Of a stretch of 64,000 nucleotides of DNA, positions 35,890-53,161 are shown in pieces. The stretch lies in contig NZ_QCZJ01000003.1 in assembly GCF_003075435.1 (NCBI RefSeq), positions 62,001 to 126,000 of the forward strand, given 5' to 3'. Source of the stretch: Terrimonas sp. (lineage in GTDB: Bacteria > Bacteroidota > Bacteroidia > Chitinophagales > Chitinophagaceae). The notes below the pieces were generated by a model that was not told the origin of the DNA, did not search any database, and saw only the letters and a list, made by a program, of their open reading frames with translations. A program made the translations under genes and the position numbers. Position 1 is the stretch's first letter. Every line of letters starts with the position of its first letter.

Positions 35890-35968
35890 ATTGTCGCTTA
35901 ATTTTTATTCTTACCAGCATGATATAAGCTGCTAAGCATGTTGTGAATTAATGGTTGTAAGTATGTTG

Positions 35969-36024
35969 AGCTATCAGCAGTCAGCTTTCAGCTATTAGCT
36001 GATACCTGATTGCTGATAGCTAAA
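35969..36024 (-). repeat. heptamer tandem array A (ftsZ-ftsA gap)
   Basis: Eight contiguous 7-bp units: AGCTATC, AGCAGTC, AGCTTTC, AGCTATT, AGCTGAT, ACCTGAT, TGCTGAT, AGCTAAA. It ends 2 bp from the ftsA stop codon. Confidence 0.65.
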
Positions 36025-36026
36025 GG

Positions 36027-37394
36027 CTATTTCAACTGCTGATCTCCTTCTTCTTTAAACAAATCAATCAACCCCCCTTTTATGGAATCCATAAAATCTT
36101 TCAGGCTTTTACGTTTTCTGGTTTTCTCTTCACCCAGGCCTTTCACTTTTGTTGCTGCTTCAGGCACTGGTTCTTCTTCTTTTATTTCCTTAGCTATGAA
36201 CTTTAAAAGCTTTGGTTTTTCCAGTGTATTCTCATATACATTATATCCTTTAAGAATTAAACCAATACAGGTTGCATACATTGGTTTGGTTAATTCATCT
36301 ATATGACCGGAAGCAAGGTGTTCATTAGGAAAACCTATGCGTGCATCCAACCCTGTGATATATTCTGTTAACTGAATTAAATGCTTTAACTGTGAACCGC
36401 CTCCTGTTAACACAATACCTCCGTTCAGCATTTTCTTTTCAATGCCTACCTGGTTTAAATGATAGGTTACAAAATCAAGTATCTCACTCATTCTTGCCTG
36501 TATGATTTTTGCAAGGTTCTGTACGCTGATTTCTTTAGGCGTCATGCCGCGTAATCCGGGGATAGTGATATAGGCATTGTTTCTCGCTTCATCCATCAGG
36601 GCGCTGCCAAACTTCACTTTCATTTGTTCAGCCTGTGTTTTTAAAACACCCAACCCTGTTTTAATATCATTGGTGATATTTTCTCCGCCAAAGGGTATAA
36701 CAGCAGTATGTTTTAAAATGCCTTCATAAAAAACAGCAATATCCGTTGTGCCACCACCAATATCTACAATAACAACGCCAGCTTCAAGATCCTGCTCGCA
36801 CATAACAGCCGCTGCTGAAGCTAAAGGCTGCAATACGAGGTCTTTAACCTGCAGGCTCGATTTTTCAACACTCCTGTTGATATTTCTTATCGCGTTTCTG
36901 TCGCCTGTGATAATATGGAAATTAGCGCCAACTTTTACACCGCTATATCCTATAGGGTTGGTAATGTTTTGAAAATTATCTACTGTAAACTCCTGCGGTA
37001 TCACATCAATGATCTGGTCGCCTGCCGGTATATATGTTTTGTATTGATTGGATACCAACTGGTCAATTTCCGCCTGGGAAATTTCTTCATCCGTATTATG
37101 ACGAACAATATCACCACGAGTTTGCAGGCTTTTAATATGATGCCCTGCAATACCCACATATACTTCATTGATCTCAAGATCAGGATTGGAAGCATAGCAA
37201 TTTTCGAGTGCTGCCTGTATGGCTTTGATCGTTTGATCAATATTCAGCACCATGCCGTGCTGCACACCATTGCTGTTGGCACGACCGAAGCCAAGTATCT
37301 CTAATTTGCCATACTCGTTTTTTCTGCCGGCTATAGCGGCAATTTTTGTTGTTCCTATATCAAGTCCTACTATAATGGGTTGTTCGTTATTCAT
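36027..37394 (-). CDS. ftsA: cell division protein FtsA
   Basis: 455 aa, actin-like ATPase that tethers FtsZ to the membrane. PHOSPHATE-1 motif GLDIGTTKIAAI (10-21), the 1C domain (EVYVGIAGHHIKS) and the VVDIGGGTTDIAVF phosphate-2 motif are visible; the adenosine motif is VLTGGGSQL. The C-terminal end has a basic/hydrophobic amphipathic region (SLKDFMDSIKGGLIDLFK) expected for membrane binding. Its start overlaps ftsQ by 8 bp. Confidence 0.96.
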   Translation of the reverse strand: MNNEQPIIVGLDIGTTKIAAIAGRKNEYGKLEILGFGRANSNGVQHGMVLNIDQTIKAIQAALENCYASNPDLEINEVYVGIAGHHIKSLQTRGDIVRHNTDEEISQAEIDQLVSNQYKTYIPAGDQIIDVIPQEFTVDNFQNITNPIGYSGVKVGANFHIITGDRNAIRNINRSVEKSSLQVKDLVLQPLASAAAVMCEQDLEAGVVIVDIGGGTTDIAVFYEGILKHTAVIPFGGENITNDIKTGLGVLKTQAEQMKVKFGSALMDEARNNAYITIPGLRGMTPKEISVQNLAKIIQARMSEILDFVTYHLNQVGIEKKMLNGGIVLTGGGSQLKHLIQLTEYITGLDARIGFPNEHLASGHIDELTKPMYATCIGLILKGYNVYENTLEKPKLLKFIAKEIKEEEPVPEAATKVKGLGEEKTRKRKSLKDFMDSIKGGLIDLFKEEGDQQLK

Positions 37395-38241
37395 GGTCGT
37401 TGATTTGTTGCGTTGGATTGTTGGTATTATTTATATCGTTTAATGTTATTGCTGATTTTTTTGCATCTCTTCGTATAGCTACTACCTGCCCTTTATACTG
37501 TACATCAATAGAAGCATAGGTATTCCATCCTGTTTTTGCCAGCACTTCTTTATAAAATATATACAGCTTTCTGAATTTAACATCAAGGTCAGCGCCATTA
37601 CCTAATACAATTTTATGCTCACCAATTTTTGGATACAGCTCAAATTGTTTTTTATCCGAATAATTTACCTGTTCAACCTGTGCTGTCCAGAAACTGTTTT
37701 TTTCTAAAAATTCGCTGATGGATTGTATTTGGCTGAGCACTGTACTATCTGCGGCGTTCCATTTTGTTTTGTCTAGCGGGCAATTGGTAAATACCGGCAC
37801 ACGCGCAGAAAACCTCGTACTTAAAGGCAGGCGCATCCAGTCCTTATCTATGTAAAAACTTTTACCTGCTGCAGTAAATATCCTTGCCATCGGCTCACGC
37901 TCTTTTATTTTAACCTGCAAAATTTCATTATTGTCGAAAAAGAGCTCAGCATCTTTTATCCACATATTATGCTCAAGCGTTTTTTCCATCTGCTGCAGAT
38001 CAAAATCCTTGATTGCTTTTCCCTTTATTACCGGTGACATGTGTGTAAGCATTCCGGTAATATCATTTTTGTCGGCAAAAAGATTATTTTTTACATCGCC
38101 GGTATCAATATTTATTCCGGCACAGGTTTTATCATCTCTTTTTCGCATAGCAGCAATAAGAAACACCACCAGGCATATGCCGGCCGCTACCCATAAAGTA
38201 GCTGCAATAAACCGTCCTATTTTTTTCCTGTTCAGTTTCAT
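37387..38241 (-). CDS. ftsQ: cell division protein FtsQ
   Basis: 284 aa. Basic N terminus, one TM helix (about 13-28), then the periplasmic POTRA and beta domains. Sequence is poorly conserved; identity rests on size, topology, IKEREPMARIF and its place between murC and ftsA. Bridges early and late division proteins (FtsB/FtsL). Confidence 0.88.
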   Translation of the reverse strand: MKLNRKKIGRFIAATLWVAAGICLVVFLIAAMRKRDDKTCAGINIDTGDVKNNLFADKNDITGMLTHMSPVIKGKAIKDFDLQQMEKTLEHNMWIKDAELFFDNNEILQVKIKEREPMARIFTAAGKSFYIDKDWMRLPLSTRFSARVPVFTNCPLDKTKWNAADSTVLSQIQSISEFLEKNSFWTAQVEQVNYSDKKQFELYPKIGEHKIVLGNGADLDVKFRKLYIFYKEVLAKTGWNTYASIDVQYKGQVVAIRRDAKKSAITLNDINNTNNPTQQINDHE

Positions 38242-38246
38242 ATTAT

Positions 38247-39620
38247 TTAAGCTGTGATGATTTTTTTTATTGGCTCAATCAATTTATCTATATCTCCTGC
38301 GCCGGCTGTTATCAGTAAAGCGTTTTTATTTTGTTTATAATCATGCTCTACCCAATTCATTAATGCTTCCTTACTCTTAATAGATTTATTGGGATTTTTC
38401 ATCCTGCTCAGAATCATTTCACTTGTAACGCCTTCCATTGGCAACTCGCGTGCAGGGTATATGGGTAATAAAACTGTTTCATCTGCCAAGTCGAGGCTTG
38501 CCGCAAATGCATCAGCAAAATCCTTTGTTCTGCTAAACAAATGCGGCTGAAAAATAATCGTGCATTTTTTTTGAGGGAACAGCAATTTTGCTCCACTCAG
38601 CAATGCTTCCAGTTCCGCAGGATGATGCGCATAATCATCTACATACACAATACCGTCACCATCAGCCACAGGAACTATATACTCAAATCTTCTTTTCACT
38701 CCTTTAAAATCAGCTACCGCTGCTTTTATTTTTTCATCATCTATATTAAGCGCTTTAGCTACGCCTATTGCCACTGAAACATTTTCCACATTATGCAAGC
38801 CGCCCATGTATAGCCTTATATCTTTAATAAGTACTTGCGGTGTTTTTACATCAAATAAATATCCTCCGTTATTTGATCGTATGTTTTCCGCATGTATATC
38901 TGCCCTCCATTGCTGAATACTATATGTATAGTGATGGTCAGCTTTCAGTTCATGCTCTAATCCAAACTTGCTGAAAAGGGTACCATTTTTTTTTATTTTT
39001 CCAGCGAACGCTATAAACGCATTCTCCATTTCCTCTGCTGTTCCATATATATCCAAATGGTCGGCATCCATTGCGCTGATCACTGCAATATCAGGACTGA
39101 GTTTTAAAAAACTCCTGTCGTATTCATCAGCCTCCACCACACAAACATTATTCGGGCTGCTCCAGAAATTACTGTTATAGTTGGCAGCTATGCCTCCGAG
39201 AAATGCATTGCAACCATAACCTGTGTGACGCAGTATATGCGCTATCATGGTTGTAATAGTAGTCTTGCCATGCGTGCCTGCTACGCAGATATTAAAAGAA
39301 CTACGGGTGATCATGCCCAGCACATCGCTGCGCTTTAATAAATCATATTCATGCTGCTGGTAATACAGCAACTCCGTATGATTCTTGGGAATAGCCGGGG
39401 TATACACAACAATATCGGTGTCTTTGGGCGCCAGTTCCACATCATCTGTATAATGAATATTTATATCTTCAGCAGTTAGTTGCTGTGTTAATGTGGTTTC
39501 TGTTCTGTCATAACCACTCACATCTTTACCCAGCGACTTAAAATACCTCGCCAGGGCGCTCATGCCAATGCCGCCGATACCGATAAAATATACTTTCTGT
39601 ATGTCCTTCAGTTCCTTCAT
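38247..39620 (-). CDS. murC: UDP-N-acetylmuramate-L-alanine ligase
   Basis: 457 aa Mur ligase adding L-Ala to UDP-MurNAc. N-terminal FIGIGGIGMSALA (12-24), ATP loop GTHGKT (115-120), EADEYDRSFL, and DDYAHHPAE near the C-terminal domain, all MurC-specific. 5 bp upstream of ftsQ. Confidence 0.97.
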   Translation of the reverse strand: MKELKDIQKVYFIGIGGIGMSALARYFKSLGKDVSGYDRTETTLTQQLTAEDINIHYTDDVELAPKDTDIVVYTPAIPKNHTELLYYQQHEYDLLKRSDVLGMITRSSFNICVAGTHGKTTITTMIAHILRHTGYGCNAFLGGIAANYNSNFWSSPNNVCVVEADEYDRSFLKLSPDIAVISAMDADHLDIYGTAEEMENAFIAFAGKIKKNGTLFSKFGLEHELKADHHYTYSIQQWRADIHAENIRSNNGGYLFDVKTPQVLIKDIRLYMGGLHNVENVSVAIGVAKALNIDDEKIKAAVADFKGVKRRFEYIVPVADGDGIVYVDDYAHHPAELEALLSGAKLLFPQKKCTIIFQPHLFSRTKDFADAFAASLDLADETVLLPIYPARELPMEGVTSEMILSRMKNPNKSIKSKEALMNWVEHDYKQNKNALLITAGAGDIDKLIEPIKKIITA

Positions 39621-39627
39621 TAAACGA

Positions 39628-40725
39628 TTACTGCTTTCTGATTACTTTTAATACTTCGTCTGCCACCACTTCGTCAGCATCTGTTATTGCCAGCCTGCTG
39701 ATATTATTTTTTAATTGCAGTCTTTCATTTTCATCCAATGCCAGGTCAATGGCCGTTGTTACCAGCTTATCTTTTGCTTCGCTGTCTTTTACCATCAGTG
39801 CTGCACCTTTTTCCGTAAGCCTGCGGGCATTCACTGTTTGATGATCTTCTGCCGCGAAAGGGTAGGGAACAAAAACCACCGCCTGCTTTACCACACATAA
39901 TTCCGCTACCGACATTGCGCCTGCTCTTGATATCACTACATCAGCCGCTGCAAAAGCGTATTCCATTTTTGTAATGAAATCGTTGGTCCATATCCCTTTT
40001 TTGCCTTCCGCCATTTTTTTTGCCTGCTCCGCGAAGGGCTTGCCTGTTTGCCATATCAACTGCATATCATTCTTTTCAAAAGCATCAATGCCTGCAGCTA
40101 TAGCTTCGTTGATGGATTTTGCACCAAGACTTCCGCCTGTTACCAGTATCGTTTTCTTATCACTGCTCAATCCAAAAAATTGTAAACCTTCTTCTTTACT
40201 TACACTATTGGCCAGTATGCTCTTACGCACCGGATTGCCGGTAACCAGTATTTTTTCCCCAGGGAAAAACTGTTCCATACCATCGCTGCCTGTAAATACC
40301 CTGCTTGCCCTTTTGCTCAACTGAATATTAGCTTTACCTCCAAAAGAATTTGCCTCGTGAATAAATGTTGGGATGCCTTTGGTTTGTGCAAACCGCAAAG
40401 CCGGAAAGCTTGAATATCCGCCAACACCTATCACTGCATCTGGCTTAAAACCATTAATAATGTTTCTAACCTGGAAGAAACTTTTAATGATCTTAAAAGG
40501 CAAGCCGATATTTTTTATCAAAGAGCTCCTGTTAAACCCTGCTATATCCAAACCTTCTATTCTGTAGCCTGCCTGTGGCACTTTTTCCATCTCCATTTTC
40601 CCTTTAGCACCCACAAACAGTATATCTATATCCTTGTCTTTTTCTTTTAATGCATTGGCAATGGCTATCGCAGGAAATATATGACCTCCTGTTCCGCCGC
40701 CTGCTATGATTATTCTTTTTGCCAA
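39628..40725 (-). CDS. murG: undecaprenyl-PP-MurNAc-pentapeptide GlcNAc transferase
   Basis: 365 aa, GT28 enzyme converting lipid I to lipid II at the inner membrane face. N-terminal loop GGGTGGHIFPA (9-19), VGVGGYSSFPAL, ILVTGGSLGAKSIN and the donor-site motif SRAGAMSVAEL are all present. Confidence 0.97.
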   Translation of the reverse strand: MAKRIIIAGGGTGGHIFPAIAIANALKEKDKDIDILFVGAKGKMEMEKVPQAGYRIEGLDIAGFNRSSLIKNIGLPFKIIKSFFQVRNIINGFKPDAVIGVGGYSSFPALRFAQTKGIPTFIHEANSFGGKANIQLSKRASRVFTGSDGMEQFFPGEKILVTGNPVRKSILANSVSKEEGLQFFGLSSDKKTILVTGGSLGAKSINEAIAAGIDAFEKNDMQLIWQTGKPFAEQAKKMAEGKKGIWTNDFITKMEYAFAAADVVISRAGAMSVAELCVVKQAVVFVPYPFAAEDHQTVNARRLTEKGAALMVKDSEAKDKLVTTAIDLALDENERLQLKNNISRLAITDADEVVADEVLKVIRKQ

Positions 40726-40743
40726 TGTTTATAATTTCTTAGT

Positions 40744-41940
40744 TTATGCGTTAACGGCAGTTGCCGCATTACCTTCCATCTTTTCCGCGTTCCGTGCCAC
40801 ACTCAGTAAAATACCAATTGCCAGGCAGGTAAATAAAAAGCTGCTTCCCCCCATGCTGACCAGCGGCAGCGGCACACCGGTAACAGGAAACAGGTTTACA
40901 TTCACTGCCATATTTACCAGCGCCTGTATCACGAGTGTAAAGCTTAATGCAAGCGCCAGAAAAGCACCAAATGCAAAAGGACATTTTTTAAATATTCTTA
41001 TGCTCCGGAAAAGGAAAAGCAGGTATATGAATACTATCGCTATACCGCCTATCAATCCATATTCCTCTATAATAATGGAGTAGATAGAATCACTGTAAGG
41101 ATGCGGCACAAAATTGCGTTGCTCACTATTGCCGGGTCCAAGCCCGAACCACCCGCCTTTGGCGATGGCAATTTTCATTTGCTGCACCTGGTAAGCAGAT
41201 TCATGTTTATCGGAATACGCAAAATCCTGTATTCGTTTTATCCAGGTAGGTATACGACCGATCTGCAACACAGCAGGAAGCTCTTTGCTTTGTCCTTCTT
41301 CCTTATTGTAATACCCTGTGGCAATAGTTACCAGTATTACCAATGGAATTAAAGCAATCCCAACAACCATTGCAATATGTTTTACGCTTACCCTGCCAAT
41401 AAACATCAGCATTATGCTTGTTGCACCAATCAATAATGCAGTGGAAAGATTTGCAGGGGCTATAAGCATGCAGGTAATACCAACAGGCACAATCAACGGC
41501 AGAAATCCTTTCTTAAAGTCTTTTATATCATCCTGCGAACGGCTGAGCTGGCGCGACAGGTACATAAATAATGCAAGCTTTGCCAGGTCAGATGTTTGAA
41601 AGGTAAGATTGATGATAGGGAGCTTTATCCATCTTGTTCCTTCATTAATTTCAGCACCAAAGAAAAGGGTATAGATCAACAAGGGGATAGAAATAACATA
41701 TAATACCAATGCTACCCTTGAGTAGATAGTATAGTTAATACGGTGGGCAAAATAAATGATCAATAAACCAACTGCTGTAAAAGCAAACTGCTTAAACAGG
41801 TATGATTCGGCACTTTTGGATAAACGATATGCAAGCGTGCCCGTGCTGCTGTATACCACAAGCATACTCACCAGGGTGAGCAGTATTACTGCTGCCCATA
41901 TCACTTTGTCGCCTTTGGTTTTATTTAGTAGTGCCTGCAT
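40744..41940 (-). CDS. ftsW: lipid II polymerase / division protein FtsW
   Basis: 398 aa SEDS-family glycosyltransferase with about ten TM helices. Conserved features: MLVVYSSTG, LAKLALFMYLSRQL, FGLGPGNSEQRNFVPHPYSDSIYSIIIEEYG with the catalytic-type Asp in the large loop, and PVTGVPLPLVSMGGSSF. Works with the PBP encoded by ftsI. Confidence 0.95.
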   Translation of the reverse strand: MQALLNKTKGDKVIWAAVILLTLVSMLVVYSSTGTLAYRLSKSAESYLFKQFAFTAVGLLIIYFAHRINYTIYSRVALVLYVISIPLLIYTLFFGAEINEGTRWIKLPIINLTFQTSDLAKLALFMYLSRQLSRSQDDIKDFKKGFLPLIVPVGITCMLIAPANLSTALLIGATSIMLMFIGRVSVKHIAMVVGIALIPLVILVTIATGYYNKEEGQSKELPAVLQIGRIPTWIKRIQDFAYSDKHESAYQVQQMKIAIAKGGWFGLGPGNSEQRNFVPHPYSDSIYSIIIEEYGLIGGIAIVFIYLLFLFRSIRIFKKCPFAFGAFLALALSFTLVIQALVNMAVNVNLFPVTGVPLPLVSMGGSSFLFTCLAIGILLSVARNAEKMEGNAATAVNA

Positions 41941-41948
41941 TTTTTTTG

Positions 41949-42055
41949 AGCTATCGGCTGTCAGCTATCAGCTGTCAGCAATCAGGTTTCAGAACTTTTT
42001 TGTCTATTATTTCGAGTTCCAGGTTTCACGTTTGACCATTCACCATTCCCCCTCA
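41949..42055 (-). repeat. heptamer tandem array B (ftsW-murD gap)
   Basis: Two blocks: AGCTATC, GGCTGTC, AGCTATC, AGCTGTC, AGCAATC, AGGTTTC (41949-41990), and AGGTTTC, ACGTTTG, ACCATTC, ACCATTC, CCCCTCA (42021-42055). The second block overlaps the murD stop codon. Confidence 0.6.
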
Positions 42056-43393
42056 CAGTTCCCTCACCGCTTCTTTAAACTGCCTCCCCCTGTCTTCGTA
42101 GTTTTTGAACAGGTCAAAACTTGCACAGGCAGGACTCAGCAACACCACATCTCCTTTATTTGCTAAATGAAAAGCCGCCTGCACTGCTTCTTTAGCGCTG
42201 GCTGTATTTACCATCACTTCCACATGCTTTCCAAATGCTTCATGAATTTTCCTGTTATCAACACCCATGCATACTATTGCTTTTACTTTTTCCTTTACCA
42301 GCTCAAGCAAAGCAGAATAATCATTACCCTTATCAACTCCGCCGAGTATAAGAATGGTAGGTTGCGTCATGCTTTCCAAAGCAAACCAGGTGCTGTTTAC
42401 ATTCGTTGCCTTGCTATCGTTAATGAAATTTACACCGCGCACCGTAGTAACATTTTCCATGCGGTGTTCAAGATTTTCAAAGGTTTCTACTGCTTCGCGT
42501 ATCTTTTCTTTGCGAATGCCGATAGTTGCTCCTGCCAGTGCTGCTGCCATAGTGTTGTATTGGTTGTGCCTGCCTTTAACTGCAAAGTCAAACACACTGG
42601 TCGTAAATTTTTCTCCGTCTGTCTGTATCGTCATAATATTCTCTTTAATGTAAGCTCCTTTTGGTAGTTGGTAGTACATGGTAAATGGCAATGAATTAGA
42701 ATGTAATGGGTTTCTTGCTATATAGTCAGTGATCACAGGATCATCGACGCAGTATATAAAAGTATCCTGCGGCGTTTGGTTTTTTATGATATTGAATTTG
42801 GATCTTATGTAGTTTTCAAACTTGTGCTCGTACCTGTCAAGATGATCTTCTGTTATATTCAACAGAACAGCTATATCCGGCCTGAATGTTTTTATATCAT
42901 CCAACTGAAAACTGCTGATCTCTGCTACATACAACACTTTCGGATCTGTTGCCACCTGCTTTGCAAATGAGTAACCGATGTTTCCTACCAACGCGCAATC
43001 AATACCACCGGTTTTACATATATGCCAGATCAAAGAAGTAGTTGTACTTTTCCCATTACTTCCGGTGATGGCAATAATCCTGCTATCACCTTTATACCTG
43101 TATGCCAGTTCTATTTCACTGATTATTTCAATGCCTTTCGCTCTTATCTTTTTTACCAGTTCGTTTTTTTCGGGTATGCCCGGGCTCTTCATTACTTCAT
43201 CTGCATTCAGTATTCTTTCTTCACTGTGTTTTCCTTCTTCAAATGCAATATCATATTGCAGCAATTCGTTTTTATATTTTGGTTGAATTGTACCTCCATC
43301 CGAAAGGAACACATCATATCCCTGCTTTTTTGCAAGGATGGCTGCACCTATGCCGCTTTCTCCTCCACCTAATATGACCATTCTTTTTACCAT
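42053..43393 (-). CDS. murD: UDP-N-acetylmuramoylalanine-D-glutamate ligase
   Basis: 446 aa Mur ligase. N-terminal GGGESGIGAAILAK (9-22), ATP loop GSNGKSTT (111-118), LNITEDHLDRY, NDSKATN and LLSPACASFDLFKNYEDRG, which is specific to MurD. Its stop lies in a heptamer array. Confidence 0.97.
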   Translation of the reverse strand: MVKRMVILGGGESGIGAAILAKKQGYDVFLSDGGTIQPKYKNELLQYDIAFEEGKHSEERILNADEVMKSPGIPEKNELVKKIRAKGIEIISEIELAYRYKGDSRIIAITGSNGKSTTTSLIWHICKTGGIDCALVGNIGYSFAKQVATDPKVLYVAEISSFQLDDIKTFRPDIAVLLNITEDHLDRYEHKFENYIRSKFNIIKNQTPQDTFIYCVDDPVITDYIARNPLHSNSLPFTMYYQLPKGAYIKENIMTIQTDGEKFTTSVFDFAVKGRHNQYNTMAAALAGATIGIRKEKIREAVETFENLEHRMENVTTVRGVNFINDSKATNVNSTWFALESMTQPTILILGGVDKGNDYSALLELVKEKVKAIVCMGVDNRKIHEAFGKHVEVMVNTASAKEAVQAAFHLANKGDVVLLSPACASFDLFKNYEDRGRQFKEAVREL

Positions 43394-43421
43394 GCTGCTA
43401 TATCCTTCTCTCTATATTTTA

Positions 43422-44741
43422 TTATCTCATTTTAAATGTTGCGATTGCAAATAATACACAGAGTATGGTTACAATCCAGAACCTTACTGCTATCTTGCTT
43501 TCGTGATACCCCAGCTTTTGATAGTGATGATGGAGCGGGCTCATTAAAAAAATGCGCCTCCCTTCGCCATACTTTCGCTTGGTGTATTTGAAATAACTCA
43601 CCTGTAATATCACGCTCAGGTTTTCTACCAAAAACACACCACAGAATATAGGTATCAATAATTCTTTTCTTACAATAATGGCAAGCGATGCAATAATGCC
43701 TCCAAGCGCAAGACTTCCGGTGTCACCCATAAATACCTGCGCCGGATAGGCGTTATACCATAGAAATCCTATGCATCCGCCAACAAATGCACCCACGAAA
43801 ACCGATAGTTCCCCGAGGTTGGGGATATACATAATATTGAGATACTCTGCAAACCTGGTGCTGCCGCTCACATACACAAATACACCGAGACATGCACCAA
43901 TCAATGCACTTACACCCGCCGCAAGCCCGTCAAGCCCGTCAGTAAGATTTGCCCCATTTGATACAGCGGTGATGATAAGTGTAACAGCAATGATATATAC
44001 AACCCATGTATATTTCTCCATACCATCACCCAGCCAGGTAATGAGCCGACTGTAATTAAATTCATGGCTTTTTACAAAGGGGATAGTGGTAATAGGTGTT
44101 TTCACAACCGCGTACCTGTGCTCTTTGCCTTCCATCGTTACAATGGTATCGCCAATCTTTTTTTCTCCTCTCTTTAAAATATCTGTTACCTGGTTTGTTC
44201 CCTGCGGGTTATAATATTCTCTCCATACCACCACATTATCATTAAAGTATAATGTAGCGCCGATGATGACGCCTAACCCTATCTGCCCGATTATTTTTGA
44301 TATACCCGCTAAACCGTCGCTGTCTTTCTTCTTATAATTTTCTCCTTTGGCCTGCGCTGTCTTTCTTGCTTTAATTTTTAAGTAGTCATCCATAAAACCA
44401 ATAAAGCCCAGCCATACGGTACACAGCAACATTAAACGGATATATACTTTATCGAGATCTGCAAATAATAATGTTGGTATCAATATCGCCAGCAGGATAA
44501 TGATACCACCCATAGTAGGCGTTCCTTTTTTCTGCTGCTCACCGGCAAGCCCTAGATCACGAACACTTTCACCGATCTGTTTTCTTTTTAAAAGATTGAT
44601 CAGCCTTTTTCCATATACCGTTGATATGAACAGGGATAATAAAACAGCCAGCAGTATTCTGAACGTGAGAAACTGCATTAACCCGCTGCCCGGGAATTTT
44701 ATGCCTTCAAATTTTAACCACTCAAATAAATGATACAGCAT
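43422..44741 (-). CDS. mraY: phospho-MurNAc-pentapeptide transferase
   Basis: 439 aa, ten-TM enzyme making lipid I. Active-site motifs: [18 protein letters not shown] (Asp pair) and [12 protein letters not shown], plus [16 protein letters not shown] and the MSPLHHHY His motif. It is about 80 residues longer than E. coli MraY owing to an extra hydrophilic segment (about 160-225) between helices; Bacteroidota homologues are typically longer too. Confidence 0.96.
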
Positions 44742-44755
44742 TTTGGCTTGTTATT

Positions 44756-46222
44756 TTATTTACCCAATAATTCAAAAGTTTCTTTTAATACTTCCTTATC
44801 GTCAAAGGGATGTTTTATTCCTTTTATTTCCTGGTATTTTTCATGGCCTTTTCCTGCAATCAAAACAATATCCTCTGCTGATGCAAGACTGATGGCCGTT
44901 TTAATCGCTTCTTTCCTGTCTGTTATAGCAATATATTTTTTCCGCATAGAAGGCAGTAAACCGGTTTGCATATCATTCAATATCGCTTCAGGGTCTTCTG
45001 ACCGCGGATTGTCTGAAGTAAACACCACTTTATCACTATGCTCGCAGGCCACTTCCGCCATTACAGGCCTTTTGGTTTTATCCCTGTCGCCACCACATCC
45101 TACTACCGTTATTATTTTTTCATGACCCTGTCTTAACTTTTTAATAGTTGCCAGTACATTTAATAATGCATCAGGCGTATGCGCATAATCAACAATGCCG
45201 ATAACTCTTTCCGCTTTCGATGTTATATAATCAAACCTTCCTTCCGCACCGGTAATATTGCTCAATACCTGCAATACTTTATATTTCTCTTCACCCAAAC
45301 AAACCGCGGCGCCATATACTGCCAGCAGGTTATATGCATTGAATTCACCGATAAGCCTGAAATGCACTTCCTGGTCGTTAATATTCATTAGCAAGCCGGT
45401 GAGATTATTCTCAAGAATTTTTCCTTTGAACTCAGCAAGTGTTCTCAGGCTGTATAAATGCTTTTTCGCCTGTGTATTCTGCAGCATTACCAAACCTCTT
45501 TTATCATCCGCATTGCTAATGGCAAATGCATCCGAGGGGAGGCTGTCAAAGAATGATTTTTTTACGCGTATATATTCATCAAAGGTTTTATGATAATCCA
45601 GGTGATCGTGGGTGATGTTGCTGAATATAGCGCCTGCAAAATGCAAACCTGATATACGATGCTGGTGAATGGCATGGCTGCTGCATTCCATAAACACATG
45701 CGTACAGCCTTTATTCAGCATTTCCTTCATCAAAGCATTTATACTTATAGCATCAGGTGTGGTATGTGTTGATGGTAAAACATCATCGCCTACCTGGTTT
45801 TGCACTGTTGAAAGCAATCCGCATTTATATCCCAACCCGGAAAATAATTTGAACAACAGTGTGGCAATGGTCGTTTTACCATTGGTGCCTGTAACGCCAA
45901 CCACTTTCATTTTTGCAGAAGGCGATCCGTAAAAATTATCAGACATATAAGCGGCGGCAAGCGCACTGTTTTCCACCTGTATATAGGTAATGTTTTCCTG
46001 CTTTTGTGCAGGCAAATGCTCTGCCACTATGGATGAAGCACCCTTCTGAATAGCTGCATCTATGTATGCATGTCCGTCAACCGCGTTTCCTTTAATAGCA
46101 ATAAAACAGGCATTGTTTGAAACCCTGCGGGAATCAATCTGCAAATCAGCTACCTGCACGCCGAGATTGCCGTGCACCGACCTGATATTTACTTTGTACA
46201 ATATGTCCTGTAAAACCGCCAT
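44756..46222 (-). CDS. murE: UDP-MurNAc-tripeptide synthetase (meso-DAP-adding)
   Basis: 488 aa. ATP loop GTNGKTT (112-118), SSHAIHQHR, NITHDHLDYH, DYAHTPDAL and the DNPR motif (SDNPRSEDPEAI) that marks meso-diaminopimelate specificity, so the wall is expected to be DAP type. Separated from ftsI by a repeat-filled gap. Confidence 0.96.
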   Translation of the reverse strand: MAVLQDILYKVNIRSVHGNLGVQVADLQIDSRRVSNNACFIAIKGNAVDGHAYIDAAIQKGASSIVAEHLPAQKQENITYIQVENSALAAAYMSDNFYGSPSAKMKVVGVTGTNGKTTIATLLFKLFSGLGYKCGLLSTVQNQVGDDVLPSTHTTPDAISINALMKEMLNKGCTHVFMECSSHAIHQHRISGLHFAGAIFSNITHDHLDYHKTFDEYIRVKKSFFDSLPSDAFAISNADDKRGLVMLQNTQAKKHLYSLRTLAEFKGKILENNLTGLLMNINDQEVHFRLIGEFNAYNLLAVYGAAVCLGEEKYKVLQVLSNITGAEGRFDYITSKAERVIGIVDYAHTPDALLNVLATIKKLRQGHEKIITVVGCGGDRDKTKRPVMAEVACEHSDKVVFTSDNPRSEDPEAILNDMQTGLLPSMRKKYIAITDRKEAIKTAISLASAEDIVLIAGKGHEKYQEIKGIKHPFDDKEVLKETFELLGK

Positions 46223-46235
46223 TGTTTGTTGTTTT

Positions 46236-46270
46236 AGCTGTCAGCTATTAGCTATCAGCCTTCAGCTTTT
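46236..46270 (-). repeat. heptamer tandem array C (murE-ftsI gap)
   Basis: Five contiguous units: AGCTGTC, AGCTATT, AGCTATC, AGCCTTC, AGCTTTT, starting 13 bp upstream of the murE ATG. Confidence 0.6.
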
Positions 46271-46348
46271 GTGTGCTGCATTCTTATTTGCTTCCTGCCT
46301 TTTGCTTTTATTTTTATTATTCTTTCTTTTGTCTTCCTTCTCTAATCC

Positions 46349-46397
46349 CTACACCTTCTACCCTATACCTTCCACCCTACACCTTCCACCTTCTCCT
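46349..46397 (-). repeat. heptamer tandem array D (ftsI 3' end)
   Basis: Seven contiguous units: CTACACC, TTCTACC, CTATACC, TTCCACC, CTACACC, TTCCACC, TTCTCCT. The last unit includes the ftsI stop codon. The unit differs from the AGCTRTC type but has the same 7-bp period. Confidence 0.65.
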
Positions 46398-48525
46398 AAT
46401 CCAGTTCCAGCATTATCGTTTGTCCCTTGCCGATAGTTTGACCTGCCGCAAGAGATTGGTTAATTATTTTTCCTTTTCCCTTTACCTGTACTTTCAGGTT
46501 CATGTTCTCCAGTAAAAACAGCGCATCTTTCAACCCCATACCTTTTACATCAGGCACCTGATTTTCATTAACCGCCAGTGCTTTTATGCCGGGTGTATTA
46601 TTATCGTTGTATACATATCCCCACTCTTCTTTGGCTGCCGAATCAATGAAAGGAATATTCATTTCCTTTAAAATATTCTTAGTATCGCTGCTGTATCCGC
46701 TCCATTTATATTTAATACTATCCGTAGCAGTTTTTGCTATGTACACCGGCATATCCTCTATATCACCCGCATACAACTTGTCTGCTATTTCCCTGAAAAC
46801 AGGAGCAGCCACAGATCCCCCTAAATACTGCGCTGAACGAGGCTTGTTTTTTATTACAACTATGCAGGAATATTTAGGTTTCTCTACCGGAAAATATCCT
46901 GCAAATGAAGACTGGTATACACCGTCGGTATATTTAAAATTTCCATCATTTACTTTTGCCGTTCCGGTTTTTCCTGCTGCATGGTATACTGCGGTTTTGA
47001 AAACTCTTTTTGCTGTGCCATCTACACAAACCGCTGCAAGACATTCCTGCAGTTGATGGAGTGTTTGTTCAGCGCATATTTTTTCGTTTAACACCTGTGG
47101 TTCAAATGCGGTAAGCACATTGCCATCTTTTTCAACTTTATTAACGAGGTATGGCTTCATGAGCTTACCGTTGTTGGCTACCGCGTTATAAATCATGAGT
47201 ATCTGCAGCGGGCTGAGCATTACTTCATATCCAAAACCCATTGACGGCAATGTTTGCATATGCCAGTCTTTACGTTTAGGGTTCTTTACCATTGGTCTGA
47301 ACTCTTCCTTTAAATCAACACCGGTACGCGAAGTGAGGTGCAGGTTTTCGTAATGCTGCACAAACTTTGCAGGAGATTTGCTGTAATAAGTATAGGCTAG
47401 TTTGGCCATCGCTACGTTACTGCTGTGCTCAAATGATTCTTTAATGGTAAGATGGCTCTTTGGAGATTTTTCCGCATCCTGTATCCTGCGGCCGTTCAGC
47501 ATCCAGACGCCGCCATCAATATCAATCATATCATTAAGCGTTACATATTTGTCTTCCAATACCGACATTAATGTAACAAGCTTAATGGTAGAACCCGGTT
47601 CAGATGTTTTTAAAGCGTAATTATCTTTTTCAAAATAAGAGCCATCCGGCATTAAGCCCAGGTTGGCTATTGCTTTAATTTTTCCTGTAGCCACTTCCAT
47701 TACAATAGCAGTGCCTTCAAGCGCCTGGTTGTCTGTCATCATGCGCATTAAGGCGGTTTGCGTAATATCCTGGATGTTCACATCAAGCGTTGTTACTATA
47801 TCTTTCCCGTTTTCCGGTTCAATTTCAGAACCTTCAACAGGCACGTATGCGCCACCGGAAATTCTTCTTACCAGTCTTTTGCCTGAAACGCCTTTCAATA
47901 AGCTGTCATAAGTTTTTTCCAATCCTACATTTTGCGTAACAACCTGCCTGTTATTATCAACATAAGTTCTTGCTAAACCAATAGTGCGGTTTGCCAGCAA
48001 TCCAAATGGCGTAAGCCGCTTTTCCATATCTTCCACTATAAAGCCGCTTTTATTTCTTCCCTGCCGCACCAGTGGCAGTGTTCTCAGCGCCTGGTATTGA
48101 TCAAAACTTACTTTTTTCTTAAGCAGGTAATAACGGTCTTTCTTTTTGTACCCTGCCTGCAATTGTTTTTTATATGCGGCGGCAGACTGATCCTGGAAGA
48201 GCTTACTCAAACCTATGGATAAGGAATCGAGGTTGGTGGTAAAACGTTTGCCTTCTTTTTCGCGAAGGCCATCAGCCATAAAATCAATATGTATGTCAAA
48301 GAACGGAATAGAAGTACTCAGCATACTTCCATCCTCGCTATAAATGGTACCGCGATCGGCATCGAGCGTACGGTAGCTTAAATGCAGGCTGTCGCTCATG
48401 CTTTTCCAGTATTCACCCTGCACCTGTTGTATATAAAATGCTTTACCAATTATAAACAGGCTTAAAGCCACAATGCCCAGAAAGCAAAGCGATACTCTCC
48501 ATAATATGTCTTTTTTTACTTCCAA
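46396..48525 (-). CDS. ftsI: division-specific transpeptidase FtsI / PBP with PASTA domain
   Basis: 709 aa. One N-terminal TM helix (about 9-30), PBP dimer domain (about 50-235), transpeptidase domain with SxxK S312-TIK315 (EPGSTIK), SSN (368-370) and KTG (519-521). A C-terminal PASTA module (about 645-709: VPDVKGMGLKDALFLLENMN...IVL-like end). E. coli FtsI lacks PASTA. Cross-links septal murein made by FtsW. Confidence 0.95.
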   Translation of the reverse strand: MEVKKDILWRVSLCFLGIVALSLFIIGKAFYIQQVQGEYWKSMSDSLHLSYRTLDADRGTIYSEDGSMLSTSIPFFDIHIDFMADGLREKEGKRFTTNLDSLSIGLSKLFQDQSAAAYKKQLQAGYKKKDRYYLLKKKVSFDQYQALRTLPLVRQGRNKSGFIVEDMEKRLTPFGLLANRTIGLARTYVDNNRQVVTQNVGLEKTYDSLLKGVSGKRLVRRISGGAYVPVEGSEIEPENGKDIVTTLDVNIQDITQTALMRMMTDNQALEGTAIVMEVATGKIKAIANLGLMPDGSYFEKDNYALKTSEPGSTIKLVTLMSVLEDKYVTLNDMIDIDGGVWMLNGRRIQDAEKSPKSHLTIKESFEHSSNVAMAKLAYTYYSKSPAKFVQHYENLHLTSRTGVDLKEEFRPMVKNPKRKDWHMQTLPSMGFGYEVMLSPLQILMIYNAVANNGKLMKPYLVNKVEKDGNVLTAFEPQVLNEKICAEQTLHQLQECLAAVCVDGTAKRVFKTAVYHAAGKTGTAKVNDGNFKYTDGVYQSSFAGYFPVEKPKYSCIVVIKNKPRSAQYLGGSVAAPVFREIADKLYAGDIEDMPVYIAKTATDSIKYKWSGYSSDTKNILKEMNIPFIDSAAKEEWGYVYNDNNTPGIKALAVNENQVPDVKGMGLKDALFLLENMNLKVQVKGKGKIINQSLAAGQTIGKGQTIMLELD

Positions 48526-48570
48526 GGTTTTGTACTGTATAATATTTATCTATTAGCTATCTCTTCTTTG

Positions 48571-48812
48571 TGGTTCGTGAGACAAGAACCATGGCGATGG
48601 CGATGTATCTATATCTCTTTTACCGGTTACATACCGTTAGTTTAAAACAGATCCCTCGTGCCTCGGGATGACAAGCGGAAGGGCAACTTTCAGCTTGTCA
48701 ACAACTGTTGGGCATTATATCTATGCTGCTGCTTTACCATTCAGCCCAATAATTATTCCTCAGCTTGTCATTCCGACTTTGGAGGAATCTGCATCCCGTG
48801 TCTCACGAACCA
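48571..48812. mobile_element. MITE-like nested inverted-repeat element
   Basis: Outer perfect 14-bp inverted repeats TGGTTCGTGAGACA (48571-48584) / TGTCTCACGAACCA (48799-48812). Inside is an imperfect 27-bp inverted pair (48649-48675 and 48764-48790), each containing an ATGACAAG / CTTGTCAT core; CAGCTTGTCA also appears as a direct repeat (48692-48701, 48761-48770). No ORF of its own. Size 242 bp and terminal repeats suit a non-autonomous element, but no target duplication was identified. Confidence 0.5.
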
Positions 48813-48838
48813 TTTTTCCTACTGTTGGGTAGGAAAAA
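48813..48838. terminator. bidirectional hairpin after ftsL
   Basis: TTTTTCCTAC-TGTTGG-GTAGGAAAAA: perfect 10-bp stem, 6-nt loop, symmetrical T/A arms. It is 9 bp past the ftsL stop on the minus strand and could terminate or attenuate the dcw transcript before ftsI, or be part of the adjacent element. Confidence 0.45.
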
Positions 48839-48846
48839 GAACGTTA

Positions 48847-49206
48847 CTACTTCTCCCTGCTTTCCACAATCTTAACCGGCGGCGTCTTCAATTCTTTCAA
48901 ACCCAAAGGTTCAACTGCTTTTGCCAGCTCACTCTGTTTGCCCCGCATCATCAGTTCACCCTTTACTGTTTTATATTCATACTGCAATTCTTTCAGCTCT
49001 TTTGCCGTTCTGTTAATATCCTTAATGGTGTTTTCGGCATAATGCCCGTTATATATATAAATAACCGCCAACACTGCAAGAAAGAGGAAATAATACATGT
49101 TCCTGGCAACCCAATCGTTGCTGAACCATTTTTTCCAATGCTTTGCAGGCGCAGTTTCTTTTTGCTGTTCCTGTTTTTCTCGCGGTATGTTTTCTGTTTG
49201 CTCCAT
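48847..49206 (-). CDS. ftsL: FtsL-like cell division protein
   Basis: 119 aa. Charged cytoplasmic N terminus rich in Glu/Gln/Lys (about 1-35), one TM helix (YYFLFLAVLAVIYIYN, about 38-53), then a periplasmic coiled coil (KDINRTAKELKELQYEY). Bacteroidota often annotate it as FtsL/DUF. Called from topology and from its position between rsmH and ftsI. Confidence 0.85.
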   Translation of the reverse strand: MEQTENIPREKQEQQKETAPAKHWKKWFSNDWVARNMYYFLFLAVLAVIYIYNGHYAENTIKDINRTAKELKELQYEYKTVKGELMMRGKQSELAKAVEPLGLKELKTPPVKIVESREK

Positions 49207-49220
49207 TTTACTATCTCCCT

Positions 49221-50129
49221 TTATTTTTTTTCAGCTACTCTTAATCTTGCGCTTCTGCTTCTCGGGTTTTCATTCAACTCCTTTGTTGAAGGGGATATTG
49301 GCTTTTTGGTGATTACATTAAAAGGACTTTCGGATTTTGTGCCGTATATGGAATCAGTTTCAGGTTCATCGAAACTGCCATAGCGGAAAAAATTTTTTAC
49401 CGTTCTGTCTTCAATGCTGTGAAAAGTGATGATGGCAGCGCGGCCGCCTTTCTTCAGGATGTTGGGGATTTGTTGCAGCATTTCTTCCAGTGCTCCAATT
49501 TCATCATTCACTGCAATGCGTAAAGCCTGAAATACCTGGGCAAAATATTTGTTGGGATTACCTTTCACTGCCGAAGCAACGGCATGCTTAAAATCATTCA
49601 CTGTTTTTAGGGAACTAACCTGCCTTTGCTGAACGATGGTTTTGGCCAGGGTTTTTGAATTGGTAACCTCGCCATAGCGTTCAAAAATTTTGTGCAGTTC
49701 CTGCTCGCCATAAGTTTTAATCACATCTGCGGCGGTGGTTGGGTGCCGCTGATCCATCCGCATATCAAGTTCGGCATCTGCAAAGCGGGTGGAAAAGCCT
49801 CTTGCTCCTTCGTCGAACTGATGGCTCGATACACCAAGGTCAGCAAGAATGCCATCTACTTCAGCTATTTTATGCAGGCGCAGCATTTTTTGAACATGCC
49901 GGAAGTTGTATTGAAGAAAAGTGATTCTTGCATCACCGGGAATATTTGCTTTCGCGTCGGCATCCTGGTCAAAAGCGATGAGTTTTCCGGTATCACCTAA
50001 TTTATCAAGAATAGCCCTGCTGTGCCCGCCCCCTCCAAAAGTGCAGTCAACGTATATGCCGCCAGGTTTAATCTGAAGCAGGTCAATCGTTTCCTTTGCT
50101 AAAACGGGTATGTGGTATTGCTGTAACAC
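49221..50129 (-). CDS. rsmH: 16S rRNA (cytosine(1402)-N4)-methyltransferase RsmH
   Basis: 302 aa (MraW). SAM-binding FGGGGHSRAIL (31-41), ILADLGVSSHQFDE, RGFSTRFADAELDMRMDQ and FHSIEDRTVKNFFR are family hallmarks. Methylates C1402 in the ribosomal P site. 14 bp upstream of ftsL; 94 bp downstream of mraZ. Confidence 0.97.
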   Translation of the reverse strand: MLQQYHIPVLAKETIDLLQIKPGGIYVDCTFGGGGHSRAILDKLGDTGKLIAFDQDADAKANIPGDARITFLQYNFRHVQKMLRLHKIAEVDGILADLGVSSHQFDEGARGFSTRFADAELDMRMDQRHPTTAADVIKTYGEQELHKIFERYGEVTNSKTLAKTIVQQRQVSSLKTVNDFKHAVASAVKGNPNKYFAQVFQALRIAVNDEIGALEEMLQQIPNILKKGGRAAIITFHSIEDRTVKNFFRYGSFDEPETDSIYGTKSESPFNVITKKPISPSTKELNENPRSRSARLRVAEKK

Positions 50130-50223: not shown

Positions 50224-50682
50224 CTAAGCCTGTGGTGGTTTATTAGCCATTACCTCCTGAGCCAGTGTGCTGAATGCTTCGGGTGAAAAAGTGTCAAAGA
50301 GCTGTTGGTACTTATTTTTATCCCAGATTTCTATTTTATCAATGGCGGAAAGCAATACAATGTCTTTTTGCAGCCCGGCATATTCCATCAGGTTTTTGGG
50401 TAACAGTAACCTGCCAGCACTATCCGCTTCCACTGTAACCCCGTTTAAAAAGTAGCGCCTGAATTCCCGCACCTTCGCATCAAAATCATTCTTCCTGCTC
50501 ATTTCCTCAAAAATCGGCTCCCAGTTTTTCATGGGGTAAAGGGTTAAGCAACGCTCAAAGCCCCTGTTAATAAAGAAGCTACCGGTTTCTCCTTCCGGGA
50601 TCTGCCTTTTAAATCCCGTTGGAAAGAGAAACCGACCTTTTGCGTCCAGTGTAGCTTCATATTCCCCTAAAAACCGTATCAT
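50224..50682 (-). CDS. mraZ: transcriptional regulator MraZ
   Basis: 152 aa, two AbrB-like SpoVT swapped-hairpin repeats: FLGEYEATLDAKGRFLFPTGF (first) and VTVEADSAGRLLLPKNLMEYA (second), each with the D-x-x-G-R core. MraZ represses or tunes the dcw cluster by binding TGGGN repeats upstream of itself; such repeats are present 22-56 nt upstream of this ATG. First gene of the dcw cluster. Confidence 0.96.
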   Translation of the reverse strand: MIRFLGEYEATLDAKGRFLFPTGFKRQIPEGETGSFFINRGFERCLTLYPMKNWEPIFEEMSRKNDFDAKVREFRRYFLNGVTVEADSAGRLLLPKNLMEYAGLQKDIVLLSAIDKIEIWDKNKYQQLFDTFSPEAFSTLAQEVMANKPPQA

Positions 50683-50703
50683 TTACAAAATGTTATATCA
50701 ATT

Positions 50704-50738
50704 TCCCATTTATTCCCACAAAATAACACATTTTCCCA
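50704..50738 (-). promoter_or_regulatory. MraZ operator-like TGGGA repeats
   Basis: On the minus strand TGGGA occurs three times in direct orientation, at 50704-50708, 50714-50718 and 50734-50738, i.e. with 10- and 20-bp start-to-start spacing. The two nearer copies are separated by exactly 5 nt, as in E. coli MraZ boxes. Confidence 0.6.
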
Positions 50739-50750
50739 CCTTAAACGCAA
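50719..50750 (-). promoter_or_regulatory. putative dcw promoter
   Basis: TTG (50748-50750), 21-bp spacer, TTATTTTG (50719-50726), one base off TAnnTTTG, 36 nt before the mraZ ATG. The -7-like box lies between the TGGGA repeats, which would allow MraZ to compete with RNA polymerase. Confidence 0.4.
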
Positions 50751-50767
50751 GTTTTAATTTAATTATT

Positions 50768-50776
50768 TTATCCACA
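50768..50776 (+). promoter_or_regulatory. DnaA box, perfect consensus
   Basis: TTATCCACA, in an AT-rich stretch 86 bp upstream of the mraZ ATG and in opposite orientation to the three phased boxes. Confidence 0.5.
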
Positions 50777-50858
50777 GCAAAAGATTTTTTAAAAGCCTTA
50801 ACAGGATTGAGTTTGCAGAGAATTTGGTGGTGTTTTTACGAATGGGCACTGTATATTC

Positions 50859-50887
50859 TGTGGATATATGTGCATAACTGTGAATAA
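50859..50887 (-). promoter_or_regulatory. three DnaA-box-like nonamers phased at 10 bp
   Basis: TGTGGATAT (50859-50867), TGTGCATAA (50869-50877) and TGTGAATAA (50879-50887), all in the same direction, each separated by 1 bp. The second and third match TTATNCACA perfectly on the minus strand, the first has one mismatch. The 10-bp period places them on one face of the helix. Confidence 0.6.
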
Positions 50888-52051: not shown

Positions 52052-53161
52052 CTAATCAGCATATCTCCATAAAAAATTGCCGGCATGTTTACGTGAACCC
52101 CTTGCAGCCATAACAATACAGGTGCCGTCTACACCTGTTTGCCTTGAGGCTTCTGCAATAGATATGTATCTTTTTATCAATTTTCCCGAAAGAGATAACA
52201 TTTCAATTTTTCTTGCCCTTTTTATTCTGACATCGGAAAACTCTCCATTATAGGCTTCTCCTTCATACCTCCACACAAATCCACCCGCTTGTTTACCTGT
52301 TCCTTTTAAAACCTGCATTATATAATTTTTGTTTGCTTTTGCGGCCGTTGCTGCTTCGTTAAGTGATGAATATGTTTTGATTTTCTTTCCTGCAAGATTG
52401 TATTGCACAATTTTCCTGTAACGTGCAATATTTTTATACTCTCCATTATAAAAGTCATTATCATACCGCCAAACAAAACCACCGGCAAACTTCATTTTTT
52501 TACCTGCAGACAAACAAATGCCTGCTAAGTTTGTACCGGATTTTTTAGCCGCGAGAGTAATGCTTTTGTACTGATTCAATAATTTTCCATCAATATTATA
52601 TTGTTTTACAGCCAGCATTCTGCTGGTGTTTTTCTCTATAATTTTTTTTCTTTCATCAACAGTAAGTTTTTTAAATGAAGATTCTCCCCGCTGGTTAGTA
52701 AATATTTTCTTTTGTCTCGCAGAAATTGATATAAGTGTTAAATTATTTGCCCTGCAATTCAATCCATCTCCATTTTTTGTTGAAACTACCGTATCAGAGT
52801 TTTCGTTTTCAGGCAGGGGAGATACGAAGTGATGATATACGAGCCGTCTGATGTTAAAACGACAACGCCTGCCTTCATAAACCACTCCAGTATATAACTG
52901 GTATGTATAATCGCCCGTGAATTTATTAAGTGTTTTTTGAAAATTTTGACCTATAATTTTCTCTTTTATCCAGTATGAGCCTCCCGACTTTTTCTGAATG
53001 AGCCTGGCACATGCTTTAACTCTCCCTTTATTGGAGATCCAAAATACCTCATCAAAACCATCTATCGGCTTCCATTGCTCTCCTTTTATATCTGCTAAAC
53101 TTCTATTTTTAAATGGATACCGGTTGATCTGCGGCTGTTCGTGGCGATGTATTATTTTCAT
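52052..53161 (-). CDS. NUMOD4/HNH-like protein with three NUMOD1 repeats
   Basis: 369 aa. N-terminal NUMOD4 motif (EQWKPIDGFDEVFWISNKGRVK, about 30-50), an HNH_3-like region (LVYHHFVSPLPENENS then VVSTKNGDGLNCRANNLTLIS) and three C-terminal NUMOD1-type DNA-binding repeats, each ending in (G/A)GxF(V/L)WRY. In active HNH_3 endonucleases the equivalent segment reads xNHxDGNxxNNRxxNL; here N-H is replaced by S-T and D by N, so nuclease activity is doubtful although DNA binding should remain. Freestanding, with no intron or host gene interruption seen. Confidence 0.85.
   Translation of the reverse strand: MKIIHRHEQPQINRYPFKNRSLADIKGEQWKPIDGFDEVFWISNKGRVKACARLIQKKSGGSYWIKEKIIGQNFQKTLNKFTGDYTYQLYTGVVYEGRRCRFNIRRLVYHHFVSPLPENENSDTVVSTKNGDGLNCRANNLTLISISARQKKIFTNQRGESSFKKLTVDERKKIIEKNTSRMLAVKQYNIDGKLLNQYKSITLAAKKSGTNLAGICLSAGKKMKFAGGFVWRYDNDFYNGEYKNIARYRKIVQYNLAGKKIKTYSSLNEAATAAKANKNYIMQVLKGTGKQAGGFVWRYEGEAYNGEFSDVRIKRARKIEMLSLSGKLIKRYISIAEASRQTGVDGTCIVMAARGSRKHAGNFLWRYAD

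Follow-up and report, generated by a model that had tools for sequence, protein, structure and literature searches.

A phased array of DnaA boxes upstream of mraZ in Chitinophagaceae, a probable DnaA-binding regulatory region of the dcw promoter

How bacteria couple cell division to the initiation of replication is a long-standing question, and the DNA upstream of mraZ in this Terrimonas genome raises it in a concrete form, as three DnaA-box-like nonamers follow one another there at 10-bp steps. A preliminary description of the site left two readings side by side, a chromosomal origin or a link between replication initiation and the expression of division genes. We analysed the window, a 64,000-nucleotide stretch (C3:62001–126000) of a genome of 82 contigs and 6.18 Mb, together with the corresponding loci of its relatives. 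The mraZ product has its closest named relative in Agriterribacter humi of the Chitinophagaceae (87%). The dcw cluster is complete from mraZ through ftsZ and contains rsmH (mraW), an ftsL-like gene, a gene for a PASTA penicillin-binding protein (ftsI), a Mur ligase gene (murE), mraY, a second Mur ligase gene (murD), ftsW, murG, a third Mur ligase gene (murC), an ftsQ-like gene, ftsA and ftsZ, the individual Mur ligase names being assigned from gene order and the ftsQ-like assignment being weak. As had been described, the block is transcribed away from the boxes, with mraZ starting on the minus strand and the cluster running off from the site. On the other side, the minus strand at 52052–53161 encodes a NUMOD4/NUMOD1 protein that resembles the DNA-binding part of homing endonucleases. 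The upstream neighbours vary among the relatives while the array stays with mraZ, as read by eye, and we rejected on this ground a role of the array as a promoter part of the upstream gene.

The three nonamers lie on the minus strand in the exact phasing reported for them and each carries one mismatch to TTATCCACA; towards mraZ the array reads TTATTCACA-g-TTATGCACA-t-ATATCCACA (Table 1). The opposed perfect box that had been noted nearby was likewise recovered, and together the array and this inverted box occupy the region 86–205 bp upstream of mraZ. Single nonamers with one mismatch are unremarkable, with 24 in the window against 19.9 expected from shuffling. The window has a single match to the triple pattern TGTGNAT-N3,4-TGTGNAT-N3,4-TGTGNAT, and 150 windows simulated with a second-order Markov model have none. 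Phased box pairs (WATNCACANNWATNCACA) number three in the whole genome, two of them at the mraZ site, which is also the sole place in its 346-kb contig where four relaxed boxes are grouped within 250 bp. The one other pair, TTATACACATTTATACACA, is found at G000:C4:38490–38507 (locus L268), with an uncharacterised gene on one side and, on the other, a gene whose product is probably an outer-membrane receptor.

Table 1 Features of the dcw promoter region, in window coordinates.
Feature	Position	Strand	Remarks
dcw cluster downstream of mraZ	34069–50129	−	Pfam matches
mraZ, first dcw gene, start 50682	50224–50682	−	Pfam PF02381, E 2.3e-29
Expected MraZ operator, four 10-bp units, GTGGGAAAAT-GTGTTATTTT-GTGGGAATAA-ATGGGAAATT	50700–50739	−	Opposite orientation to array; from sequence
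Invariant TGTTATTTTGTG inside the operator	50717–50728	−	74/74 loci
Proximal inverted DnaA box, perfect TTATCCACA (TGTGGATAA in mraZ sense)	50768–50776	+	48 bp before the TGTTATTTTGTG motif
Spacer, proximal box to array, 82 bp	50777–50858
Distal array, three DnaA-box-like nonamers, 10-bp steps	50859–50887	−	Also in genus loci and across family
Nonamer TGTGGATAT, minus-strand reading ATATCCACA	50859–50867
Nonamer TGTGCATAA, minus-strand reading TTATGCACA	50869–50877
Nonamer TGTGAATAA, minus-strand reading TTATTCACA	50879–50887

Comparison across the Chitinophagaceae, a family found in soil and water, drew on 99 mraZ loci, which reduced to 74 distinct upstream regions; the sample is uneven and consists mostly of MAGs, and loci that are related do not count as independent. 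Most of the forward [AT]TNCACA cores, which average 2.4 per region, are placed between −140 and −240 from mraZ, and the distances between cores on the same strand fall at 10 bp (32 pairs), 11 bp (36), 20–22 bp (48) and 32 bp (16), with almost none between. The cores of the array share one orientation (ATNCACA/TTNCACA); across the 74 regions, cores in the reverse orientation exhibited no periodicity and a reversed-pattern control returned no pairs. At least two in-phase boxes were present in 55 of the 74 regions, against 0.35 expected from shuffled windows. In the remaining 19 the strict pattern finds one box and no in-phase pair; because some species retain only a single box, the array may be tunable or partly dispensable. 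Across the distinct loci the sequence between the boxes is variable while the layout is conserved, and a comparable layout was found in a more distant member of the family (L275). Absence of the boxes from close relatives had been named as a result that would speak against the site; they are clearly conserved upstream of mraZ. Outside the family, about 35 loci from some 20 families of Bacteroidia, read by eye, have MraZ boxes without such an array, with the exception of a phased pair at two loci of one genus of another family (L243, L246). Because other Bacteroidia have the MraZ boxes without the array, the element looks like an innovation of the Chitinophagaceae or one mostly retained there.

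The preliminary description left out the 10-bp repeats that are located between the array and mraZ, a separate feature in which we recognise the operator expected for MraZ. MraZ sites composed of GTG repeats at 10-bp intervals have been described (PMC7761207), and the consensus GTGKKA at 10-bp steps is found in these repeats and not in the array, whose GTGNAT differs at two positions. In the relatives the GTG spacing of the MraZ boxes is almost always strictly 10 bp, and the string TGTTA(T/A)TTTGTG within them is present in all 74 regions. The TGTTATTTTGTG motif contains a TAnTTTG-like string that is probably the −7 promoter element of Bacteroidota, promoter and start site having been placed from conservation alone. 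The inverted box, TGTGGA(A/T)AAA, was found in 56 of the 74 loci within 5 bp of the same place, and in 54 of these 56 it lies exactly 48 bp before the invariant promoter motif, so that boxes of the consensus TTATNCACA are conserved at a fixed position relative to a promoter. Across the family, the last box of the array and the inverted box are between about 55 and 99 bp apart, in steps near 11 bp (55–60, 67–72, 77–82, 88–94 and 99 bp). The Rayleigh R at a period of 11 bp was 0.61 for the 56 loci and 0.59 for the 49 that were left after removal of similar sequences (p about 3e-8, a value made optimistic by residual relatedness). These steps tend to keep the array and the inverted box on the same face of the DNA, a geometry that suits a DnaA oligomer bridging the two.

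That the site is the chromosomal origin, or part of it, is very improbable, even though clustered phased DnaA boxes next to AT-rich DNA, a local minimum that the cumulative GC skew of the 346-kb contig reaches close to the site and the short distance between mraZ and dnaA in several relatives would all favour that reading. The local minimum tracks gene orientation, and around mraZ the four-fold-site skew keeps its sign in both the Terrimonas genome and G006. In two closed relatives, in which 20-kb samples were taken by region and four-fold sites were scored per coding strand, the sign switches near 1.02–1.04 Mb and, almost diametrically opposite, near 2.75 Mb (G218), and near 1.29–1.35 Mb (G239). 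These positions coincide with nadA (1.04 and 1.295 Mb, respectively) and not with mraZ (0.545 and 2.39 Mb), which is 0.5 and 1.1 Mb away from the switch. A skew minimum elsewhere had been named as the outcome that would count against an origin, and this is what both closed genomes exhibit. The G239 switch falls beside mnmG, in the intergenic DNA that separates nadA from a SurA/PpiD-like gene and holds several DnaA boxes; nadA of G218, at 1.039 Mb, sits at that genome's own switch and provides independent confirmation. The conserved sequence upstream of nadA comprises a DnaA box, a GC-rich tetramer and a TAATAGTAATAG repeat, the layout of the DnaA-trio or basal unwinding system (PMC8287927). 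By a simple pattern, this element was detected upstream of nadA in 12 of 15 genomes and, by the same pattern, in none of the 74 mraZ upstream regions. The Terrimonas genome is among the 12, with its element near 129.2 kb of G000:C16 (locus L270, about 5.2–5.7 kb), outside the window. In the window's own genus the four-fold-site skew is weak, including near nadA, although coding direction and raw GC skew of G006 do turn there. The mraZ site therefore has the DnaA-box cluster of an oriC and lacks both the strand switch and the trio, and the skew in the closed relatives together with the trio element at nadA leads us to reject oriC at mraZ. The intergenic region of nadA and ppiD next to mnmG is the probable oriC of the Terrimonas genome and of the family, and it is not adjacent to dnaA. 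An origin at dnaA was also considered and rejected, since the dnaA region, on another contig (C5), has no box cluster and in G218 dnaA, at 488 kb, lies well away from the switch. Upstream of dnaA (locus L033, G000:C5, 5019–5151) there are two TTTTTCACA boxes, 124 bp apart, that are possibly autoregulatory. The separation of mraZ and dnaA, 57–66 kb in several genera (closed or large-contig relatives G218, G054, G239 and G089), marks a conserved neighbourhood, though in G218 and G239 both genes lie apart from the origin.

A motif was built from 207 sites that were seeded on CAC alone and paired at 10 or 11 bp, and gave T (.55), T (.59) or A (.39), A (.80), T (.90), N (T/C/G), CAC and A (.78); this is the DnaA box, TTATNCACA, or in short form [T/c][T/A]A T N CAC A. 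The single DnaA of the genome carries in domain IV the string GGRDHTTV, the canonical box-reading motif, and matches domain IV of the E. coli protein (1j1v, E 1.8e-18). The array could instead be a second, distal MraZ operator, inverted with respect to the proximal one, through which the ring-shaped MraZ would bring its own promoter into a loop; array and operator alike consist of GTG/CAC repeats with a period of about 10 bp, as in the described MraZ sites (PMC7761207), and the array is oriented opposite to the known operator. We consider this unlikely. Read on the strand of the array, the MraZ boxes found in these loci give T (.94), A/C, A/C, CAC, that is T[A/C][A/C]CAC, and counted from the shared CAC the two motifs are mutually exclusive at two positions (T 0.90 in the array versus A/C 0.83, and A 0.80 versus T 0.94). 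The array mixes 10- and 11-bp spacing against the strict 10 bp of the MraZ boxes, and the other Bacteroidia retain MraZ boxes without it. A whole-genome pattern search with overlapping matches merged found a perfect triple array in 31 of 246 Chitinophagaceae genomes, one in each, against one match for the reversed pattern over the same 246. Twenty-eight of the 31 lie upstream of mraZ, two at oriC, where they adjoin the DnaA-trio motif (G139, G224), and one near neither. That exceptional arrays fall at oriC speaks against MraZ and argues for DnaA as the likely ligand. The array near neither (L257, G102:C37:179500–181500, near locus position 1015–1042) is flanked by a gene for an uncharacterised membrane protein and an ABC-transporter ATPase gene. 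DnaA-titration sites such as datA, DARS and the DnaA-box clusters of B. subtilis are box clusters outside oriC, and an array that titrates or recharges DnaA, acting on initiation and not on mraZ transcription, would account for dense consensus boxes away from oriC, for phasing suited to a stable DnaA oligomer and for the frequent closeness of mraZ to dnaA. It is a similarly doubtful reading, for titration does not require boxes to keep a set distance from the mraZ core promoter, and other locations would serve it equally well, yet nearly all perfect arrays are at mraZ. Chance, or a functionless short local repeat, agrees with the ordinary frequency of single nonamers; the failure of the simulated windows to produce the triple pattern, and a layout conserved while the DNA between the boxes varies, contradict it, and we regard it as extremely improbable.

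The site, conserved across the Chitinophagaceae, is thus probably a region where DnaA binds to regulate the dcw promoter. The proposed connection of DnaA with the division genes gains a candidate site, through family-wide conservation, phasing, position and motif; the binding of DnaA and its regulatory action on dcw we infer from sequence. DnaA, probably in its ATP form, would bind cooperatively to the array, as happens at the arrayed boxes of oriC, and would reach the inverted box by way of a short loop or filament. Depending on the level or nucleotide state of DnaA, such a complex would alter the transcription of mraZ and of the genes for division and peptidoglycan, alongside control by MraZ at the same promoter. 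Because the probable core promoter has all of the boxes on its upstream side, activation is slightly favoured as the sign of this regulation, repression through the loop being almost as likely.

This geometry has precedents in other systems. Same-strand DnaA sites 2 bp apart bind ATP-DnaA cooperatively at E. coli oriC (PMC6070618, PMC6727663), and in Thermotoga maritima same-orientation boxes pair best at 2 bp, a 10-bp insertion retaining function and a 5-bp insertion not (PMC10316083). Like the left and right arrays of E. coli oriC, which have 2-bp gaps and an 11-bp period, the mraZ array is built of same-orientation sites, but it is located at a promoter, has near-consensus boxes with 1- or 2-bp gaps and comes without an unwinding element or DnaA-trio. 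Origins of the trio type (PMC8287927) share with it the DnaA boxes, while in this family the trio is found at nadA and is absent at mraZ. DnaA acts as a transcription factor at division genes in Caulobacter crescentus, on the ftsZ and mipZ promoters (PMC3193534), which have one or two boxes; the mraZ site differs in its head-to-tail phased array and fixed inverted box, in serving the promoter of the whole dcw cluster and in belonging to an unrelated phylum. The MraZ operators of E. coli, mollicutes and Burkholderia (PMC7761207) resemble the array in promoter, 10-bp period and GTG repeats and differ from it in consensus and orientation, and in our loci the operator lies between the array and the gene. 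In contrast to titration sites, the array has a geometry fixed to a promoter.

To our knowledge, there has so far been little support for DnaA controlling the dcw cluster directly and as a whole. In open-licence papers on mraZ with DnaA boxes, oriC or DnaA regulation, we found no such site described for Bacteroidota, and, to judge by that open literature, an oriC-like phased array that is fixed to the dcw promoter and shared by a whole family has apparently gone undescribed; DnaA-regulated division promoters are already known elsewhere (PMC3193534). The analysis also places the probable oriC of the family at nadA–mnmG, apart from dnaA. At the dcw promoter, an oriC-like array of putative DnaA boxes has been retained across the family while other intergenic DNA changed, and its parts are small, phased and readily mutated, so that the idea is directly testable. 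Tentatively, and with less confidence than in the site itself, we propose a family-specific switch between replication and division, in which a looped, oriC-like DnaA oligomer at the dcw promoter would read the ATP-DnaA level, so that the threshold for origin firing may also govern how strongly the division and wall genes are expressed, while MraZ would act as a second input at that promoter.
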